From: a virus
DNA: 25,489 nt
IMG/VR virus record: IMGVR_UViG_3300037258_001181
Span: 1 to 25,489 of that record
Reading direction: 5' to 3' (one strand)
The notes below the pieces were generated by a model. It had not been told where the DNA came from. It saw only the letters and a program-made list of their open reading frames with translations, and made no database searches. Below, piece after piece: positions 3,861-24,905 of the stretch (position 1 is its first letter; each line of letters starts with the position of its first letter). Made by a program: the position numbers and the translations under genes.

Positions 3861-4523
3861 ATGAATAGGTCGAAAGAGATTGTGGTAAATACCGCGCCTA
3901 GCGAGGATCTGCTGAGATTCGTAGGAAACCGTAGATTCGGCACGATTCTGTGCGATCCGCCATGGCAATTCCAGAATCGGACTGGAAAGATCGCGCCTGA
4001 GCATAAACGTTTGGCGCGTTACGGCACATTGAAGCTCGACGATATTAAGGCTCTGCCCGTCGAAAGAATCGCCGCGTCCGTTTCCCATCTTTATCTCTGG
4101 TGTCCGAACGCGCTGCTCCCTGAAGGAATTCAGGTGATGAAGGCGTGGGGATTCCAGTACAAAAGCAATTTGGTGTGGCACAAGATTCGCAAGGACGGCG
4201 GCTCCGATGGACGCGGAGTGGGATTCTACTTCCGCAATGTGACGGAGCTCATTCTTTTCGGGGTCCGGGGAAAGAACGCCAGGACGCTGAAACCCGGAAG
4301 GACGCAGGTCAATTACTTGTGCAGTCGGAAGCGCGAGCACTCTCGCAAGCCGGATGAGCAGTACAAGATCTTCGAATCGTGCAGCCCCGGTCCGTTTATC
4401 GAGCTCTTTGCGCGCGGAGAACGCAAGCGCTGGGCTTCATGGGGCAATGAGGCGGACGAGTCTTACACTCCGACCTGGGACACGTACGCAAACCACTCAA
4501 GAAGCGAAGTTGCCGCGGACTAA
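3861..4523 (+). CDS. MT-A70 family adenine-N6 DNA methyltransferase
   Basis: A 220-residue methyltransferase. The catalytic D-P-P-W motif is at residues 32-35 after the strand GTILC. The order of the other conserved blocks fits the MT-A70 group: LYLWCPNALLPEGIQVMKAWGF, then SNLVWHK, then the TELILFGVRG strand, then REHSRKPDE and the FIELFARGERKRWASWGNE motif that ends the family. It would transfer methyl from S-adenosylmethionine to adenine N6 in DNA. The start ATG follows GGATTAGGG. Its stop codon interdigitates with that of the BglII-type endonuclease on the other strand (CTAA at 4520-4523), giving a tail-to-tail pair with no spacer. That arrangement supports it being the protecting enzyme of a restriction-modification system. 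The target site cannot be read from the sequence. Confidence 0.88.
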   Translation: MNRSKEIVVNTAPSEDLLRFVGNRRFGTILCDPPWQFQNRTGKIAPEHKRLARYGTLKLDDIKALPVERIAASVSHLYLWCPNALLPEGIQVMKAWGFQYKSNLVWHKIRKDGGSDGRGVGFYFRNVTELILFGVRGKNARTLKPGRTQVNYLCSRKREHSRKPDEQYKIFESCSPGPFIELFARGERKRWASWGNEADESYTPTWDTYANHSRSEVAAD

Positions 4524-5179
4524 GCGTCTGGATCGTACTTTCGTTTCGTAATTCCGAATGCAAGCACCGGGCATCCGCCGGAGGCTCGGTTGTGCATTTT
4601 CGGAATCAGTTTGGACATGTGAGTCGTCGATTGGCCCGCGGCCGTGGTCTTGCCGAGCTCCATAAAGAGATCTTGAAGCTCGTCGGCGCGCGTGACGATC
4701 ACGCCCACACTCAGAACGTTCAATTCAAAAAGCAGGCGGAAAGTCGTGAGATCTCGATCGAAGAACGGATCCTTGTTATTCCATTCTGTCTCGATCGCAA
4801 TCCGATTCTTGTAGTAATCGACGTGATGGGTGGGAGCGAGTGTTTCAGCCCCGTCTGCGGTCACCTTAATATCGAAACTCTTCTCAACCCAACCGCGGGC
4901 GAAAAAAAGCCCGTCGATTGTCCTAGAAATTGGCGACTTGTTGCCGCCGCCCTTCTCAATGTATGTGCGTTTGAGAGTGAAGTCCTGGAGTACGGCAATG
5001 AGGTCGTTCCACTGATCCCGAAAATCCGTCCGAAGGATCGCACAAGCGTGATGGCGCTCCTCCGCCTGATAGCTATCGCGAATTGCTTGTGGAAGCAGCC
5101 CTATTCCCACGCCTGGCTCCCAAGTAACGAAGATTAAACCGATTATAAGCCGCCAAATAGGACGAGCAATCAGATCCAT
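4520..5179 (-). CDS. BglII-family type II restriction endonuclease
   Basis: A 219-residue protein that I assign to the BglII restriction-endonuclease family. The diagnostic core is KNRIAIETEWNNKDPFFDRDL at about 125-145, carrying the E-x-E-W catalytic strand. Next come the helix TTFRLLFELNVLSVGVIVTR, the STTHMSKLIP block and a closing GGCPVLAFGI strand. The cysteine-glycine-rich end and the 'STTHM' motif are, from memory, typical of this family in metagenomic genomes. The first 30 residues are unusually hydrophobic (WRLIIGLIFVTW) but there is no export signal pattern. The ATG at 5179 has GAGG five bases upstream. A strong terminator just upstream (5194-5221) insulates it, so it needs its own promoter. 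Together with the convergent MT-A70 gene it forms a likely type II restriction-modification system. Confidence 0.85.
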   Translation of the reverse strand: MDLIARPIWRLIIGLIFVTWEPGVGIGLLPQAIRDSYQAEERHHACAILRTDFRDQWNDLIAVLQDFTLKRTYIEKGGGNKSPISRTIDGLFFARGWVEKSFDIKVTADGAETLAPTHHVDYYKNRIAIETEWNNKDPFFDRDLTTFRLLFELNVLSVGVIVTRADELQDLFMELGKTTAAGQSTTHMSKLIPKMHNRASGGCPVLAFGITKRKYDPDA

Positions 5180-5652: not shown

Positions 5653-5680
5653 TTGACACGCGGTGTTGTTCCTGTAATGT
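5653..5680 (+). promoter_or_regulatory. Candidate promoter of the HNH-AP2 gene
   Basis: A consensus -35 TTGACA (5653-5658) is followed by TAATGT at 5675-5680 (16-base spacer) or TGTAAT at 5673-5678 (14-base spacer). The first has good spacing but a weak -10; the second the reverse. It lies in the 50-base gap between two divergent genes. Confidence 0.35.
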
Positions 5681-5693
5681 GAGTGGGAAGAGG

Positions 5694-6227
5694 ATGAAGT
5701 TAATCCCCCTGTCCAAAAACAAAACAGCGAAAATTGATGATTTAGATTTCGAGCGGGTCAGCCGTTGGAAGTGGTCTTTTTGTCCAAATCGCAATGGCTA
5801 CGCAGTAAGGAACGAAACATACGCTCCTGGGAAACACCGCTTTCTTCCGATGGCGCGTTTCATAATGAATGCGCCTAAAGGAATGTTGGTAGATCACCAG
5901 AATAGCGATACGCTCGACAATCGACGTGAGAATCTGCGGCTATGCACGATCGCAGAGAATCAGCAGAACAAGAGAAGGCCGAAACACAATACCAGTGGAT
6001 ACAAAGGGGTTCAGTGGTCAAAGCAAAAGCAAAAGTGGATTGCGATTGCTACACATGAGGGCCATCTCTACTGGGGTGGTGGATTCGATGACAAGGTTGA
6101 AGCGGCCAAAGCGTATGACCGCCTCGCTACTCGACTGTTCGGCGAGTTCGCTCGGCTCAATTTCCCTGAAGAAATTGTCCCAGCGAAGCCGTTGCACGAT
6201 ACTGAGGAATTGGGTCGAGCTGCTTGA
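5694..6227 (+). CDS. HNH homing endonuclease with AP2 DNA-binding domain
   Basis: A 177-residue protein with two domains. Residues 1-95 are the HNH nuclease typical of phage and mobile-intron enzymes: ISL-type start MKLIPLSKNKTAKID, 'RWKWSF', then the catalytic VDHQNSDTLDNRRENLR (D67-H68, N76, N80). Residues 98-157 form an AP2 domain (SGYKGVQWSKQKQKWIA ... EAAKAYDRLATRLFGEFARLNFP) that would bind the target. It cuts DNA near its own insertion site and so spreads to allelic genomes. The ATG at 5694 with GGAAGAGG directly before it is preferred to the GTG at 5679. Its 3' end overlaps the DUF932 gene on the opposite strand by 71 bases. Confidence 0.88.
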   Translation: MKLIPLSKNKTAKIDDLDFERVSRWKWSFCPNRNGYAVRNETYAPGKHRFLPMARFIMNAPKGMLVDHQNSDTLDNRRENLRLCTIAENQQNKRRPKHNTSGYKGVQWSKQKQKWIAIATHEGHLYWGGGFDDKVEAAKAYDRLATRLFGEFARLNFPEEIVPAKPLHDTEELGRAA

Positions 6228-7086: not shown

Positions 7087-7299
7087 CTATTGCTGGGCTT
7101 GGGGCGGCAGAGATTTTTGCGGGGCTTTTGCCTGGGCGGTAGCGGTCTGCACATCTGAGATGTGGAACGCGAACGCGATCACAGAAAGGATCGTTACGAC
7201 GATCCCGGAAATCTGCGCTGACATGAACGGGACGACGGCGTTGCCGACCGCGATGACGATGGTGGCGATTAAAGTCCAGTTGGTCTTGCTGAGATTCAT
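7087..7299 (-). CDS. Holin-like small membrane protein
   Basis: A 70-residue protein with two hydrophobic helices: about residues 8-26 (WTLIATIVIAVGNAVVPFM) and 30-46 (SGIVVTILSVIAFAFHI). A polar Gln/Pro/Ala/Lys-rich tail follows. Size, two-helix topology and position at the end of the tail/lysis gene run fit a phage holin, which would permeabilise the inner membrane to release or energise an endolysin. It starts 32 bases after the cysteine-protease gene on the same strand and has no Shine-Dalgarno sequence (ACTTCATTCCCA before ATG). Another small membrane function is possible. Confidence 0.6.
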   Translation of the reverse strand: MNLSKTNWTLIATIVIAVGNAVVPFMSAQISGIVVTILSVIAFAFHISDVQTATAQAKAPQKSLPPQAQQ

Positions 7300-14552: not shown

Positions 14553-14768
14553 CTATGCCTTTGCTTTACGCTTTGCCTCTTCCGATTCTTCCTGAAGCAT
14601 GAGCAAAATATTTGTGACGAACCATTGAGGTTGGTCGCGGTAGTCGGCCCATGTCCATTTCATCTCTCGGCACAGGAGCACGGCTTTCAGCTCGGGCGAG
14701 AGATACGCGCGGCCGTTGGCGAAGAACTCGTGCCAGATCAGCTCTGCGCTGGAGTCTTCGCCTCCGTA
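14553..14768 (-). CDS. Frameshift extension of the tail assembly chaperone (T-like)
   Basis: A 71-residue frame (YGGEDSSAELIWHEFFANG, then WTWADYRDQPQWFVTNILLM) reading -1 relative to the chaperone gene it overlaps. It has no usable start near its beginning. The -1 frame is open from about 14900 onward, so ribosomes shifting near the end of the first gene would make a fusion. This is the layout of lambda G/GT and most siphovirus chaperones. The nearest candidate slip is T-TTT at 14768-14771 (codons GAT TTT ACG), where the P-site tRNA re-pairs perfectly; no classical two-tRNA heptamer is visible. The coordinates assume that slip point. A stop TAG at 14553 precedes the 49-residue gene. Confidence 0.65.
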   Translation of the reverse strand, partial: YGGEDSSAELIWHEFFANGRAYLSPELKAVLLCREMKWTWADYRDQPQWFVTNILLMLQEESEEAKRKAKA

Positions 14769-15040
14769 AAATCCCCGTTCACGATCTTCGTCACTTCCTT
14801 GCTGAGGAAGAGATAGTCGCCGAGCGGAAGGGCGCGGAGCGCGGCGGGGATGTTTTCCTTCGCGCCGTTGATTGAAACGACGGCGATCGTGACGAGCTGT
14901 TTAGCGAGCTCGCTTTTTGATAGTTCCGCGCCTTCCTTTGCGTCGTTGATGTCGAGGAATTCTCCGGCGGAGATGTATTCCTTGAGTTCGACAGGGACGC
15001 CGGACGGCGTGGATACTGTCTTTGTCTTTCGTTCTGACAT
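14738..15040 (-). CDS. Tail assembly chaperone (G-like)
   Basis: A 100-residue protein rich in Lys/Glu and Ser/Thr at the start, then helical (EGAELSKSELAKQLVTIAVVSINGAKENIPAALRALP), ending SKEVTKIVNGDFTEAKTPAQS. Size, position between tail tube and tape measure, and an overlapping -1 frame all match the first tail-assembly chaperone of siphoviruses, which coats the tape measure before tube assembly. The ATG follows a C/A-rich leader (CCCTCACCACA) without a Shine-Dalgarno sequence, 21 bases after the tail-tube stop. I do not recognise the exact family by sequence; the assignment rests on gene order and frame structure. Confidence 0.7.
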   Translation of the reverse strand: MSERKTKTVSTPSGVPVELKEYISAGEFLDINDAKEGAELSKSELAKQLVTIAVVSINGAKENIPAALRALPLGDYLFLSKEVTKIVNGDFTEAKTPAQS

Positions 15041-15061: not shown

Positions 15062-16060
15062 TTAGTAGCTTTCGACGGTGTTCGTGGTCACGATATTCAA
15101 CATTTCCGAGTTAGCCGTTGAATACGTGGCGACGAACTTGATGGTCTGGTACACAAGATCTTTGACCTTGATCGGCCTGCTGATCTCCGTGAAATACGCC
15201 TGGTCGAGCGTGATCGCGACCTCGGGATTCGCCGCGCTGCCGATCGTGACGTCGGTGTTCTTGAGCTGGATGAGCATCGCCTGGGGAACATTCGGGGTCG
15301 CGAGCGCGACGGTCTTGAAGTCGGCCTCGTTTTGCCAGATGGCTTCAAGCGTGCCGGTCACCTTGAACTCCTTGTTCAGGTAATCGATCGGGGCGATGCT
15401 GCCGAGCACGTCGTCATCCTCGATACCTCCGTCGATGGAGAGCTTGAAGGACTTGAGCGCGATGGCGGTCGCGTCCGAAAGGCCGGAGACGCTTGTCGCG
15501 TATTTGAACGTCATGTACTGCGGGAGAAAGCGGTTTTCGGAGGCGATGGACGGGGTGAAGGAACTTTGCGAGGCGCCTTTGAGGGCTTTCACCGAAAGTG
15601 AGAGTTCCGCGAACTTCTTCAGCTCCACGTCGAGGTCGAGCTTGTGGACGACGCCCAACGCATGGGAGTAATCCACACCGGAGAGCGGGTCGTGGATGAA
15701 GAGGGTGAGCGACTGGTGCTGCGCGGATTCGCCGACGGTCGTCGTATGGTCGTAGACCGTCTCCTCCTCACCGTGCGCCGCGTCCGCATTCGAACCGAAC
15801 GCAGCGAGAAGGATCAGCGGGAGGCTCTGGTCCGTGACGGGAACCTTGAGTGTTCCTTCGGCCCAGTTCTTCGTGCGGAACTGGCCCACGGAATCCTCGA
15901 TGATGCCGTATGCCTCGTCCTGCGAGACGTTCGTGTACTTCTCGTCAAAGGATGCGTCGCTGAAGGGAAGCCAATAGGATGCGGACGATTCCGCCGTGCC
16001 GCGTGTGCCTTCCTTTTTGATGCCGATTGAGAATCTTCTTCCTATGCCTTTTTGTGACAT
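15062..16060 (-). CDS. Major tail (tube) protein
   Basis: A 332-residue protein assigned as the tube subunit. It starts GIGRRFSIGIKKEGTRGTA, a typical tube N-terminus. It continues with alternating strands and Asp/Gly turns (VDYSHALGVVHKLDLDVELKK, then AIALKSFKLSIDGGIEDDD), and ends with the domain ITLDQAYFTEISRPIKVKD-LVYQTIKFVATYS, which fits the tube beta-sandwich. At 332 residues it is on the long side. The start ATG is two bases after the upstream stop (TAA-CC-ATG), with no Shine-Dalgarno sequence, so it is coupled to the 81-residue gene. It would polymerise to form the tube around the tape measure. Confidence 0.8.
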   Translation of the reverse strand: MSQKGIGRRFSIGIKKEGTRGTAESSASYWLPFSDASFDEKYTNVSQDEAYGIIEDSVGQFRTKNWAEGTLKVPVTDQSLPLILLAAFGSNADAAHGEEETVYDHTTTVGESAQHQSLTLFIHDPLSGVDYSHALGVVHKLDLDVELKKFAELSLSVKALKGASQSSFTPSIASENRFLPQYMTFKYATSVSGLSDATAIALKSFKLSIDGGIEDDDVLGSIAPIDYLNKEFKVTGTLEAIWQNEADFKTVALATPNVPQAMLIQLKNTDVTIGSAANPEVAITLDQAYFTEISRPIKVKDLVYQTIKFVATYSTANSEMLNIVTTNTVESY

Positions 16061-16062
16061 GG

Positions 16063-16308
16063 TTATTCGTTATTGGTTTCTAATGCACCGACCTTTCCCG
16101 GTTTCACCGGTTTTCGTTTGACGAGATAGATCTTCTGCGCGTCCTGAAGGGTCGCCGCGCGTATTGCGATCGCCTGGTAGCCGTTCGTTTCGGGATAGAA
16201 ATACTCGTTCTCAAGCTGCGAGGCAGCCCTGATCGTCGTCGGCTGGACATCCTTGTTCAGGGTGTCTGCGCCGCCGATCATTTTGTTTTCTGTTGTTGGA
16301 ATATCCAC
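16063..16308 (-). CDS. Small hypothetical tail-operon protein
   Basis: An 81-residue protein from a GTG at 16308; an in-frame ATG at 16281 (72 residues, A-rich leader) is an equally plausible start. Text such as LENEYFYPETNGYQAIAIRAATLQDAQKIYLVKRKPVKPG is globular and strand-rich, with a basic patch near the end. It lies between the chimeric terminator-like ORF and the tail tube, ending two bases before the tube start, so a head-tail or tail-neck accessory role is likely. No family recognised. Confidence 0.55.
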   Translation of the reverse strand: MDIPTTENKMIGGADTLNKDVQPTTIRAASQLENEYFYPETNGYQAIAIRAATLQDAQKIYLVKRKPVKPGKVGALETNNE

Positions 16309-16325: not shown

Positions 16326-17351
16326 TTATTGCACTGCTGCGGGAACGAGGACCTTTGCCTTAAGCGTAATGTAGAAGACCGTATATGTCACGGAGCCGCT
16401 ACTCACAGGCCCCGGAGGGTCAAGGATCGCGGGCTCGACGCCGCCGACCGCGTAGCCCTGGAGGGTGACGTCATTGTCGAAGGCCTGCAAGACGCCGTCC
16501 ATGAGCCCTTCAAGATACGTCGGATCGGTCTTCGGAAGATTCTCCGGGGTCGTAACGACCATGACGAACCACGTGTAGCCGGCCATCTCGCCCGCAGGCT
16601 TGATCGGTCCGCCTCCCGGTTGGTCGCTCAGTTCCTTGCCTGCGCCGCTCAAGAAGAGGAACGGCAAGCCGGACGATGAAGCGAGCGCGGAGCGGATCGC
16701 GGCCCAGACGGTGCGGTGCATGTACCATGCGGCGCCGTCCAGGATCGATTCCTCCAACGTTGCGATGACGTTCGCAGCGTCGGTGACCGGGTTGAACTTC
16801 GCATAGGTCGTGCCACCCGTGGCGAGCGTGCCATATCCCTTCGGCAGAGGGCCGTTCGCCTTCTCCCAAACGGCGACGTGCATCTGCCTCCTGTCGCCCG
16901 TAGTTGCGCGCCAGTAGCCATCATTCTTCCGGGGCATGTATCTGCGGCCGTCGAACACCCGGACGGCGCCAAAACTCTTTGACCTGAGCTTGAATCCGCG
17001 GACGCGGAACTGATCGTAGACCGCCTGGCGCGTCTTCCCGAATGCCTTCCCCACGTCAGCAAGCGAATAAATCTTGCCGTTGGCGCCGTGGAGGTACAAA
17101 AGATACATTGCGTCCACTTCCGCATTGTTCTTGCGGAGTTGAGTGAACTCCGGGCGAGTTTTCAGCGAGCTCCTGAGAACTTTCCGGGAACACTCACTAC
17201 ACAAATCCGATTCGACCCAGTGGCAGCCTCTCGGACAGGCTTGTTCGTCGGTGCATCCACATTTTCTGCATTGTTGGCCGTTTAGGCTGACATTTTTCAT
17301 GTAGGGCGGGGGCGGCTTTGTCACATTTGCTTTACCGGGGAGGGACGCCAT
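16326..17351 (-). CDS. Chimeric ORF: truncated HNH endonuclease + capsid fragment + tail-terminator C-terminus
   Basis: A 341-residue ORF that reads as three unrelated pieces. (1) Residues 20-60 hold a seven-Cys cluster (CRKCGCTDEQACPRGC, then CSEC) of the phage zinc type. Residues 78-173 are a helix-turn-helix and HNH lead (YSLADVGKAFGKTRQAVYDQ, then VWEKANGPLPKGYG) that stops just where the catalytic H-H-K-D should follow. (2) Residues 175-255 resemble an internal piece of an HK97-type major capsid protein (ATLEESILDGAAWYMHRTVW, then SGLPFLFLSG). (3) Residues 257-341 resemble the C-terminal part of a tail terminator (YLEGLMDGVLQAFDND, then VEPAILDPPGPVSSGSVTYT). Junctions lie near 16830 and 16585. 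Frames remain open through all three, so downstream tail genes still get translated. No complete head gene exists nearby. Confidence 0.6.
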   Translation of the reverse strand: MASLPGKANVTKPPPPYMKNVSLNGQQCRKCGCTDEQACPRGCHWVESDLCSECSRKVLRSSLKTRPEFTQLRKNNAEVDAMYLLYLHGANGKIYSLADVGKAFGKTRQAVYDQFRVRGFKLRSKSFGAVRVFDGRRYMPRKNDGYWRATTGDRRQMHVAVWEKANGPLPKGYGTLATGGTTYAKFNPVTDAANVIATLEESILDGAAWYMHRTVWAAIRSALASSSGLPFLFLSGAGKELSDQPGGGPIKPAGEMAGYTWFVMVVTTPENLPKTDPTYLEGLMDGVLQAFDNDVTLQGYAVGGVEPAILDPPGPVSSGSVTYTVFYITLKAKVLVPAAVQ

Positions 17352-17412: not shown

Positions 17413-17850
17413 CTAGAACGGGATCTCCGGCAAGTCGTCCGGCGCGCCGACCTTCGTTCCCTTCTTCACGATCACGGTATAGCCGTTCTCGTCGTCCACG
17501 CGCTCGTACCCTTCCGGCACAAGGTACACCGCCGTCACCGCCCGGCCGCCGACGCGCATCTTCTCCGTCTCACACGTGAGCACGTGGCCCTCCCAGTCCG
17601 CCGATTCCTCGCCGAACGCGTCGATCAGTCCATTCAGGGTGGCGCGATTCAGCGAAATGTTCTTGGTTTCGGTGTCGCCGCTGAAGAGAACCTTGGCGAC
17701 ATCCTGGAACTTCGTGTCGCCCGTCTTCTCATCCTTGAACTGGCTCGCCATGTGCGTCGTCTCGCTCATCAGCTTGCACCGCGAACCGGACTGAATCTCC
17801 GCACCCTTGACCCACGCGCCCGCCACTGACTGTTGTTTTGGATATTTCAT
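17413..17850 (-). CDS. Conserved phage-type hypothetical, possible DNA-binding
   Basis: A 145-residue protein: GAWVKGAEIQSGSRCKLMSETT, then KFQDVAKVLFSGDTETKNISLNR, then ATLNGLIDAFGEESADWEGH, then VLTCETEKMRVGGRAVTAVYLVPEG and a final acidic end. The beta-rich middle with repeated short strands is consistent with an OB-like fold, and similar text recurs, from memory, in phage early regions, where such proteins are often single-strand-binding-like. No sequence motif proves it. Its ATG overlaps the upstream stop by one base (TAATG). It sits where the head or packaging genes would be expected. It is separated from the chimeric ORF by 61 bases. Confidence 0.55.
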   Translation of the reverse strand: MKYPKQQSVAGAWVKGAEIQSGSRCKLMSETTHMASQFKDEKTGDTKFQDVAKVLFSGDTETKNISLNRATLNGLIDAFGEESADWEGHVLTCETEKMRVGGRAVTAVYLVPEGYERVDDENGYTVIVKKGTKVGAPDDLPEIPF

Positions 17851-21478: not shown

Positions 21479-22717
21479 TCAAGCCGCTAGAAACTTATTT
21501 ATCTTTTCGATCACGATTTTTCGCGGGGACGCATAGCGTTGGAGCGAGTGCTTTATCAATTTTGTGGGGTTGGCTTCGTCGCCGCGCTTCTGAACGGTCG
21601 GCCAGCCGATGATCCTCCGGGCCTGCGGGAGATCATCAATAAATGTGCGGCAGTAAAATTCATAGCGGGGCAATGAAGTGATGTGCGTCGCCTGGACCTG
21701 TTCCTCGTTCCAGTTCTCCTGAATGGCCTGGGCGTCTTCGCCGCTGACGTTGAAACAAACCTGCGTCGGGCAGTTCGAAAATACATCCTTGGCAAACGGG
21801 AGCTGGTACATTCCCTGCGAAGCGAGCACGAGCGTAATGCCATATTTCCGGCTCTCGGCGAGCAGCGTCCCGAATCTGCCGCCGTGGATGAAGTTGTGGA
21901 CTTCGTCAGCCACGAGCATGAAGGGCGGCCGGACTTTCTGCTTTTCTCGTTTAAGCGCCGAGATGGAGACCATCGAAACGATGAGCGAGCCGAGGATCTG
22001 GGCGATCTCTTCCCCGAGACGGCCTTTTGAGAACCGGCACACGACGATCTTCTTCTTGTTCATGATCTCCAGAAAGTCGAGGGATTTGGGCTGGCCGATG
22101 ATCGGAATGATGGACGGCCGGAGAAGCTTGCCTACCTTATTGATCGGTGGCGAGAATTTGGACATCTGCTCGGAGTCCCTTAACTTTTCGTCGTATTGTT
22201 CTTTGAACATCTGAAGCAAGGGGTTCTCGGTCGCGGCCAAAATCTTCTCCCGGAACCTGTCGTCGGCCATGAAACGGAAGATGTGGACTGGCGTCGGGTG
22301 GTCGTAGTACTCGCACACCGCGTCGATCGCGTTAATGATGACCCGCGCGGATTCGTCGCCCCATGCGGAGCCCGCCAGAGATTTGAACGTGGTAAAAAGC
22401 GATTCTTTCCCAAGCTCCAGCTCCTCCGGGGAGTTGAAATGGAGCGGGTTGAACGGCGGGACAAGCGAAGCGTCGGGATCTATCCAAATGAAATCCCGCA
22501 TCCGGCTTTTCGGAATCAATTTGACGATCTGGTCGGCGGTGTCGCCGTGAGGATCAATAAACAATCCGCCGTTGCCCTGGCGGATGTGCTCGATGAAGAG
22601 ATTGACGAGCAGGGTACTCTTTCCCATGCCTGACATTCCCTCAACGTTCAAATGCTTGGTGGAGTCGATAAAGACCTCATTGCGGGTGATGCTATCTTTG
22701 CCGATTGATATATTCAT
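21479..22717 (-). CDS. HerA/VirD4-like P-loop ATPase (second in operon)
   Basis: A 412-residue ATPase of the HerA/FtsK/VirD4 superfamily. Walker A is GMSGMGKST (about residues 27-35), followed by the family text GGLFIDPHGDTADQIVKLIP. Walker B is FMLVADEVHNFI with Asp-Glu near residues 271-272. A conserved LVLASQGMYQL sensor motif and an arginine-finger region come before a C-terminal TVQKRGDE-type end. It would power DNA movement, most likely as a coupling protein for transfer or as a DNA pump. It is downstream of the replication-relaxation gene in one operon, separated by a 99-base gap. The ATG at 22717 is preferred to one at 22738; both lack a strong Shine-Dalgarno sequence. Confidence 0.82.
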   Translation of the reverse strand: MNISIGKDSITRNEVFIDSTKHLNVEGMSGMGKSTLLVNLFIEHIRQGNGGLFIDPHGDTADQIVKLIPKSRMRDFIWIDPDASLVPPFNPLHFNSPEELELGKESLFTTFKSLAGSAWGDESARVIINAIDAVCEYYDHPTPVHIFRFMADDRFREKILAATENPLLQMFKEQYDEKLRDSEQMSKFSPPINKVGKLLRPSIIPIIGQPKSLDFLEIMNKKKIVVCRFSKGRLGEEIAQILGSLIVSMVSISALKREKQKVRPPFMLVADEVHNFIHGGRFGTLLAESRKYGITLVLASQGMYQLPFAKDVFSNCPTQVCFNVSGEDAQAIQENWNEEQVQATHITSLPRYEFYCRTFIDDLPQARRIIGWPTVQKRGDEANPTKLIKHSLQRYASPRKIVIEKINKFLAA

Positions 22718-22816
22718 TTTCCGTGTCCCCGTCCCCATCGAGAGCGCGGATTACGCGCTGAGAGAACGGGGAGCCGGAGAAGTGCTGGAAAGCCAGCCCC
22801 GCGATTTTGCTCGCGA

Positions 22817-23650
22817 TTAGTTTAAGTGTAGCGAGTATGTGGTATTTTGATAGTCCCTCGGTGTGTGGAAGATTTGACCGCCGACATTTTCTTTATAGCT
22901 GAGTTCGTCGGTGAGCCAAAACATTCGGTGATTATACTGAGTGTTTAACGCCTTGAGGAGATTGGTGCGGCGCTCATCCGTCCGCTGGACCACGATCACC
23001 CTGAACTGCCGAAAATCCGTCCACTCCTTTTCGCACTTGTCCGTCCCGTAGTACTCGTAATACCGGCCTAATTTGGTCATGATGGACGGCTCCCCTTTTA
23101 CGTAATGCCCGATCTTCGCGCGCTCCAATTCGAGGAAATAGTACAGGGTGTTTTTGCCGTCGGGTTTTTGCGGGTCGGTCAGGGCGAACATCGCATCAGG
23201 GGAGACGGTGCATTTCAAGTCCGCCTGCTGCCAATAGAGTTTCAGTTTGTTTGTCGCGGCGAATTTCTTGAGGGCGATGTGGAAGAAAGAGATCTCCAAC
23301 TCGTGGTCGAGGGTGCGCTGGGAGTGCTCGTCGAACGTCTTGGCATTGGGCCAGAGGGACTTGCAGAACTCAACGCCCTTGTCGGAGAGGCCGTAGACAT
23401 AGGTCGTGCGGCCGTGGTCGCGATCAAGCTCTAAGTATGGGAGCCGTTTTGCGAGGCCGTCGCGGTACAACAGTCCGAGGGTGTGCCGGAGCGAACGTGC
23501 CTCATCATGGCTCGGAGCTTGGCCGCGCTCCAATTCACCGAGGTCGTTGGTTCGTAGGCAGAAGTATTCGGCGAGCAGTTCAATCGTCTTTATTTTGGCG
23601 CGGGTCAGTCGGGGCGCGGCCTTCTTCTGGTTCTCGGTACCGGTCGGCAT
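22817..23650 (-). CDS. Replication-relaxation family protein (relaxase-like)
   Basis: A 277-residue protein of the replication-relaxation family, linked to plasmid replication and mobilisation. Residues 15-95 are a winged-helix domain (LTRAKIKTIELLAEYFCLRT, then YVYGLSDKGVEF). The core has DHELEISFFHIAL (conserved His-Glu), then P151-D152 in SPDAMFAL, then E174-L-E176 in YYFLELERAK179, which matches the PD-(D/E)xK spacing; then GRYYEYY and the strand FRVIVVQRTDERRTNLL. It could nick or bind the transfer origin. It starts at 23650 with AAAGGGA one base before the ATG and overlaps the upstream ATPase by 71 bases in another frame. Confidence 0.8.
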   Translation of the reverse strand: MPTGTENQKKAAPRLTRAKIKTIELLAEYFCLRTNDLGELERGQAPSHDEARSLRHTLGLLYRDGLAKRLPYLELDRDHGRTTYVYGLSDKGVEFCKSLWPNAKTFDEHSQRTLDHELEISFFHIALKKFAATNKLKLYWQQADLKCTVSPDAMFALTDPQKPDGKNTLYYFLELERAKIGHYVKGEPSIMTKLGRYYEYYGTDKCEKEWTDFRQFRVIVVQRTDERRTNLLKALNTQYNHRMFWLTDELSYKENVGGQIFHTPRDYQNTTYSLHLN

Positions 23651-24905
23651 TCCCTTTATTATGGTAACCCTGCGGGTGTTGTAAAGAGGCGTTGGGGACA
23701 GTGCGTTTCAGGATGATTTCTGCGTAACTATGGGGGCTCTCTCCGAGGAAGTGGGGCGTATCCACGAGGGATGAGCCACAAGGCAGAGAAGCGACTGCGG
23801 TGAATTTTTGAAGAGTCGGAATTTGCTGAAGAAGGTCTTCCGGGATGCGGCGCTTGAACATATTTGGGTCGTCGAGGCGCATAAGTATGACGGTTCCAAG
23901 CATGGGAAGTTTCTGTTTTATTTTGTGAGGAAAATCGCTGTCGTCGGGAAGCTGATTGGCTAGGGTGAGACACAGATTGTATTTCCTGGCCTGGGTGAGC
24001 GTGTCGGAAAAATCATCCGCCGCGTGTCTGATAATCAGCTGACATTCGTCGATATAGAGGAAAAATGGTTCACGTTCCGAAAGGTCGATATGTTCGCGGG
24101 ATAGGGTAGCTTGTAAGAATTTGGCGAAAATGAGCGATCCAATGAAGCGGTCAGTAGGATTTTGTTTCAGCTTCACGAGAAGGATTTTCTTATCCCGCAT
24201 GATGTCGGAAATGTTTATCACCGGCACAGCATCGAAGATCTTGCGGAGGGTTGGCCGCTCGCTGAATCGTGAAAGGCGTTCGAGGAGGGTGGGGCTTACC
24301 TCCAGTTTCTTGAATTTCTGTTCGGGCCATTGGGGTTCGCGGTGAGGGGCGAATTTCCAGACCTCCTTACGGGTATCTTGGGATTCGATAAATCGGGCGA
24401 TGTCGAGGAACGTGAAATGGGCGCCGTTTTCATTTGCGTCAAAAAGGGTTCCGAGGATTCGTTCGAGAATGCGGATGCTTATTGGCGCTTCGTCCAAGCC
24501 TAAGATCGCCAGAAGCTGGTCGGTAAGTATGTCCCGGTCGCCTTCAAGCGTTTTGTTGTAGGAGAAAAAGTCGATGGGAAGCGGATCGTTGGTATCGAAA
24601 TAGATGGTGTCGTTTGCCCGCTGCTCAGGAATCCAGTGGAGGAGTTTTTTTACAAGATCGGCGGTCGGATCGATCACACAAACCCCGCGTTCCTCACAAA
24701 TGTCGTGAAGGATCATGTGCTGGAGAAGCGAGCTTTTTCCAGAACCTGGGTTCCCGGCGATATACACGGCTTCGGATCGGACGGCGGCGGGAATTTCGAG
24801 TGGCCGAGCGGATGGATTGTGGTACGAAATAAATGGTTGCGGAGTATTGCGATCGAGAAAAGTTCTTTTGGGTAGTTGATCGGTGAATGACGGCTTATAT
24901 TTCAT
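23580..24905 (-). CDS. HerA/VirD4-like P-loop ATPase (first in operon)
   Basis: A 441-residue ATPase. Walker A is GNPGSGKSS (residues 51-59), then ERGVCVIDPTADLVKKLLHW. Walker B is FFLYIDECQLI with Asp286-Glu287. The sensor stretch is YNLCLTLANQLP. The C-terminal 60 residues are polar and Pro/Gly-rich. It resembles the other ATPase in layout but shares little text with it. Its start overlaps the upstream membrane-protein stop (ATGA), so it is translationally coupled to that gene. A membrane-coupled DNA pump or coupling-protein role is likely; no other transfer-apparatus gene (no VirB4-like or pilus gene) is seen in the window. Confidence 0.82.
   Translation of the reverse strand: MKYKPSFTDQLPKRTFLDRNTPQPFISYHNPSARPLEIPAAVRSEAVYIAGNPGSGKSSLLQHMILHDICEERGVCVIDPTADLVKKLLHWIPEQRANDTIYFDTNDPLPIDFFSYNKTLEGDRDILTDQLLAILGLDEAPISIRILERILGTLFDANENGAHFTFLDIARFIESQDTRKEVWKFAPHREPQWPEQKFKKLEVSPTLLERLSRFSERPTLRKIFDAVPVINISDIMRDKKILLVKLKQNPTDRFIGSLIFAKFLQATLSREHIDLSEREPFFLYIDECQLIIRHAADDFSDTLTQARKYNLCLTLANQLPDDSDFPHKIKQKLPMLGTVILMRLDDPNMFKRRIPEDLLQQIPTLQKFTAVASLPCGSSLVDTPHFLGESPHSYAEIILKRTVPNASLQHPQGYHNKGNADRYREPEEGRAPTDPRQNKDD

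Follow-up and report, generated by a model that had tools for sequence, protein, structure and literature searches.

A provirus of a temperate siphovirus family that has probably lost its head module through two deletions

Incomplete (cryptic) prophages lose genes for packaging, portal and capsid preferentially and are enriched in integrase and tail genes (PMC7744054). The window analyzed here, i.e., the whole of one IMG/VR record (IMGVR_UViG_3300037258_001181; 25,489 nt), resembles these elements in having kept an integrase and a tail module and lost the terminase, portal and capsid genes. It differs from the surveyed cryptic prophages in that the exact scars and the parent sequences are readable, and in that both joins lie within one open frame. 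Like tailocins, the window carries tail genes without head genes; unlike tailocins, it has a broken terminator and therefore no complete tail gene set, has kept its early and integration genes, and gives no sign of belonging to a shared, conserved head-less lineage. The case is most likely one of ordinary prophage decay, of a known kind, rather than a new type of gene.

The window starts exactly at the ATG of an integrase gene, its other end coincides exactly with the start codon of the last minus-strand ORF, and we infer that it is a provirus cut out at gene boundaries. It contains the integrase and colinear phage modules; its tail and early genes are open and similar in length to their homologues, and most of the genes outside the region described below align over their full length with those of relatives. 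The window is most likely a provirus of a temperate siphovirus family, of which one complete integrated copy was found, in a metagenome-assembled genome (MAG) of Acidobacteriota. The following features were distinguished around the site of the missing head module:

17413-17850, minus strand: gene of the early region, found ahead of the head module in relatives (92% identical to its homologue in relative G007)
16326-17351, minus strand: chimeric ORF, 341 codons, open throughout
17154-17351, minus strand: Cys-rich (zinc-ribbon-like) N-terminal segment of the ORF, residues 1 to ~66
16831-17153, minus strand: N-part of an HNH endonuclease, residues ~67-174, with a helix-turn-helix-like region and the start of HNH_3
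16830/16831: junction 1, HNH Gly174 / capsid Thr241
16576-16830, minus strand: internal piece of an HK97-type major capsid gene (capsid codons ~241-325 of 410; 80-92% amino acid identity to relatives)
16576/16577: junction 2, capsid GGCTA / terminator TACACG, with a 2-nt overlap (TA)
16326-16577, minus strand: C-terminal part of the gene in tail-terminator position (~83 of 155-162 codons; 75-82% amino acid identity to relatives)
16063-16308, minus strand: intact small gene after the terminator
15062-16060, minus strand: intact tail tube protein gene (PF18906, E 1e-12; phrog_290, E 6e-25)

Several accessory and structural genes of the window were also identified: (i) a convergent pair at 3861-5179, encoding an MT-A70 type II methyltransferase and a BglII-family restriction endonuclease (84 and 74% identity, respectively, to their homologues in relative G008), predicted to form a provirus-borne restriction-modification system; (ii) two VirD4/HerA-like ATPase genes (21479-24905; TraG-D_C, with PADLOC mads_8 and HerA matches) on either side of a gene for a 277-aa protein with no Pfam match at E 0.01, a trio kept in several relatives within this phage family; and (iii) within 14553-15040 (minus strand), a gene at 14738 that overlaps a second frame (ELIWHEFFANGRAYLSPELK...) ahead of the tape measure gene, an arrangement resembling a tail assembly chaperone pair produced by frameshifting.

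Used as a query, the chimeric ORF matched 31 viral loci, nearly all covering either residues ~175-262 or residues ~253-341, and the capsid and terminator pieces were never contiguous in dozens of related contigs. The capsid piece corresponds to ORF residues 175-259/262. Since the ORF holds ~85 of the 410 capsid residues, it does not contain a full-length PF05065 domain (~280 positions), which the capsid of an intact relative matches across 99-404. Matches to the capsid of loci L018 and L019, which ran past this piece, proved to involve a normal full-length capsid. The terminator piece (residues 253/259-341) lacks the N-terminal half of the 155-162-aa protein; the name "tail terminator" rests on gene order, the intact gene having no Pfam match. 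The preliminary description had read the ORF as a truncated HNH endonuclease, an internal capsid piece and a tail-terminator C-terminus in a single frame, and this composition was confirmed, as the ORF is open over 341 codons and each piece is matched separately in relatives. Of the families named there as search targets, HNH_3 was matched in part, and the HK97 capsid assignment came through PF05065 in the intact relative; the terminator received no Pfam name. Sequence comparison supports the view that the ORF joins three unrelated genes, with sharp boundaries between them.

Residues 71-174 of the ORF share 48-59% identity with three HNH proteins (L087 of G008, L115 of G022, and L196). The match of residues 142-174 to PF13392 (HNH_3) covers only positions 2-19 of 46 (E 0.023; phrog_1891, E 1.6e-4), and the catalytic HHxD...NN...N motif is missing, in agreement with the truncation proposed earlier: the homologues carry on as HHKDKDRSNNN (L196) and HHIDRNPLNN (L115), whereas the ORF runs into capsid sequence. 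The closest HNH homologue reads GCGIHHKD where the window reads GYGTLATGG, and the join was therefore placed after Gly174, at 16830/16831, as had been expected near 16830. The HNH part alone, as a single-sequence query, retrieved no relative, while a three-row alignment of this part retrieved one better homologue. The Cys-rich segment (residues 1 to ~66) is absent from the homologous HNH proteins and includes a 30-aa match (70% identity) to small proteins of Stenotrophomonas phages. Its presence may reflect either natural fusion or an additional join, and the ORF may thus comprise four segments. A second HNH gene of the provirus, a homing endonuclease gene encoding an HNH plus an AP2 domain, lies at 5679-6227 (plus strand).

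At the DNA level, the capsid-type matches that reach junction 2 end at ORF nt 773-780, mostly at 776, and the terminator-type matches begin at nt 775 in nearly all relatives. This is explained by the parent sequences: intact capsid genes read GGCTAT/CCGGTC, intact terminator genes GAATACACGTGG and the window GGCTACACGTGG, with 2 nt in common. Such agreement to the base between the two homology ends, across nearly all relatives, is far beyond chance. The join previously placed near 16585 was confirmed in the sequence, its position being off by ~9 nt. The overlap at the joins is only 0-2 nt. Degenerate patterns across both joins retrieved no other contig with the same joins from the viral contigs.

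In relatives, the early part comprises genes for a VirD4-like ATPase, a RepRel-position protein and a second VirD4-like ATPase, a primase-like gene and the 17413-like gene. It is followed by the head and tail part: small terminase, large terminase, portal, protease, capsid, connectors, terminator, tube, tape measure, hub, fibres and integrase, with an HNH gene after the large terminase in relative G004. The gene order of the window is the same, except that the block from 17413 to 16308 has shrunk to the chimeric ORF; the intact terminase-to-terminator block, which the preliminary description had suggested looking for, was found in relatives between the same flanking genes. There, the 17413 gene lies 19-21 kb before the capsid gene (~21 kb in G007), and the capsid and terminator endpoints are 2.5-3.1 kb apart; in the window the 17413 gene is directly upstream of the scar. 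Compared with G004 and the complete provirus (G018), ~18-21 kb is missing at junction 1 (terminases, portal, protease and the N-half of the capsid gene) and 2.5-3.1 kb at junction 2 (capsid C-end, connectors and the N-half of the terminator gene). No homologues of the small or large terminase, portal, protease or connectors were found in the window. Of the 34 relatives that carry the tube gene and extend far enough upstream, 33 have a full-length capsid gene. Among 148 loci with a capsid gene, with overlapping loci on the same contig counted separately, 137 have it either complete or interrupted solely by the end of the contig.

The complete provirus is located as follows:

PKVY01000081.1:116014-168126: complete provirus G018 (C67) of Acidobacterium sp. 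MAG palsa_291, ~52 kb

It is bounded by 23-nt att direct repeats (TTCGATCCCATCCGCCGCCACCA) at 116014 and 168104, 52.1 kb apart, the first of which lies at the 3' end of a tRNA-Met gene, and the G+C content is higher outside the repeats. The provirus is colinear with the window from the integrase to the last early gene (24902-like), with 84% identity for the tube and 92% for the VirD4-like ATPase. Unlike the window, it has a full head module (large terminase, portal, protease and connector queries match it at 84-91%) and no chimeric ORF; the missing head DNA accounts for the size difference between the two. Among 298 genomes of its order, only this one carries the tube gene. Other tube relatives in genomes (L103-L108; 44-57% identity) occur in MAGs of Patescibacteria (Nomurabacteria, Peribacteria and Falkowbacteria) and in one unclassified bin. 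In the Acidobacterium provirus, the gene for the large terminase (L112:11955-13949, minus strand) carries a Hint (intein-type) insertion.

A second head-deleted contig, IMGVR_UViG_3300050821_015813 (G322; loci L007, L039 and L188), lacks the large terminase, portal, protease and the N-half of the capsid gene. Its single join was located in two of these loci:

L188, ~7900: small terminase/capsid join
L007, ~7270-7281: small terminase/capsid join

Here the small terminase gene breaks off after codons for KAY and is followed, in a different frame, by the capsid gene from codon 240/241, the two sharing 2-4 nt at the join. In contrast to the window, the contig has one join only, its left partner is the small terminase gene, and the capsid C-half, connectors and terminator are intact. 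Its capsid endpoint nevertheless equals that of junction 1 within ~3 nt, for which post hoc estimates of the probability of coincidence are ~0.6% (even spread over the capsid gene) and ~0.03% (whole 23-kb block). Three further contigs (L157, L179 and L024) begin at capsid codons 227, 237 and 254; assemblies may tend to break near there, and the shared endpoint may thus have a technical cause. A short inverted repeat (AACGTG-8 nt-CACGTT) lies beside the capsid endpoint in several relatives, and junction 2 enters its right-hand gene at TACACG. The shared endpoint hints at either a deletion hotspot or a shared artefact. It is rather doubtful that deletions in this phage family recur at capsid codon 240/241, where two unrelated contigs break with different left partners; were it so, a recombination hotspot, due to cleavage or a hairpin, could lie behind it and generate head-less elements time after time. 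This endpoint is the sole unexpected element of the case.

The window is probably a defective provirus whose head module was removed by two deletions or by one complex template-switching event. The first deletion would have begun within an HNH gene and ended at capsid codon 241, and the second would have extended from capsid codon ~325 to the middle of the tail-terminator gene, both presumably in the cell by microhomology-mediated (illegitimate) recombination. The provirus would no longer be able to make particles, and the fused ORF would be an inert side product that stayed in frame by chance. A pair of scars within 255 bp is, however, more complicated than a single deletion, the degenerate patterns retrieved no other contig with these joins, and the second contig with the same capsid endpoint could mean a systematic artefact. 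An assembly or library chimera, in which an intact ~50-kb provirus would be the actual genome and its pieces (or those of co-resident strains) would have been joined by chimeric molecules, gap-closing or a scaffolding error, is accordingly an unlikely but serious competitor: the record is metagenomic, its joins recur in no independent contig, and the capsid endpoint shared with the second contig and lying near three contig starts is one at which assemblies tend to break. Yet joins made by k-mer overlap or gap-closing would hardly share as little as 0-2 nt, the ORF contains no N, and the two joins lie in one gene, both in frame, with the remaining genes colinear. A single continuous protein family, named beforehand as a finding that would overturn the chimeric reading, is next to inconceivable for this ORF, as profile searches found no family model spanning its 341 codons and its parts are different genes in relatives, 2.5 to ~20 kb apart.

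Selection was also weighed. The in-frame joins had been taken to suggest it, but this argument is not supported, since two random joins keep the frame with a probability of 1/9 and the frame is lost in the other contig with a head deletion. A selected head-less element, in which the fused ORF or the tail and early block is functional (as a tailocin-like particle, or through a fragment of the capsid that interferes with relatives when these superinfect), is highly improbable. It would agree with the frame kept open through both joins, the open tail and early genes of homologue-like length, and the pairwise dN/dS of the capsid piece (0.17, against 0.12-0.22 among intact relatives). Against it, the tail terminator is itself interrupted, the capsid piece falls short of a complete domain, this state occurs in no other contig, and the pairwise dN/dS of the window is the highest of the set, by a small margin, for the terminator piece, tube and tape measure protein (TMP). 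The same values bear on the proposal of a recent event, which is weakly suggested: the capsid piece, lying inside the intact range, fits it, while the terminator piece, tube and TMP are those for which the window ranks highest.

Whichever way the capsid endpoint is read, the chimeric ORF, with its probable two-deletion origin, shows at base resolution the scars left by loss of the head module in a provirus family of soil bacteria that have not been cultured, and intact relatives are at hand for comparison. If the endpoint is not real, the case is routine decay of a prophage and a warning against taking every in-frame fused ORF for a gene; if it is real, it would mark a specific route by which prophages turn head-less. 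The path from active phage to remnant may be read directly from the scars and the intact relatives.
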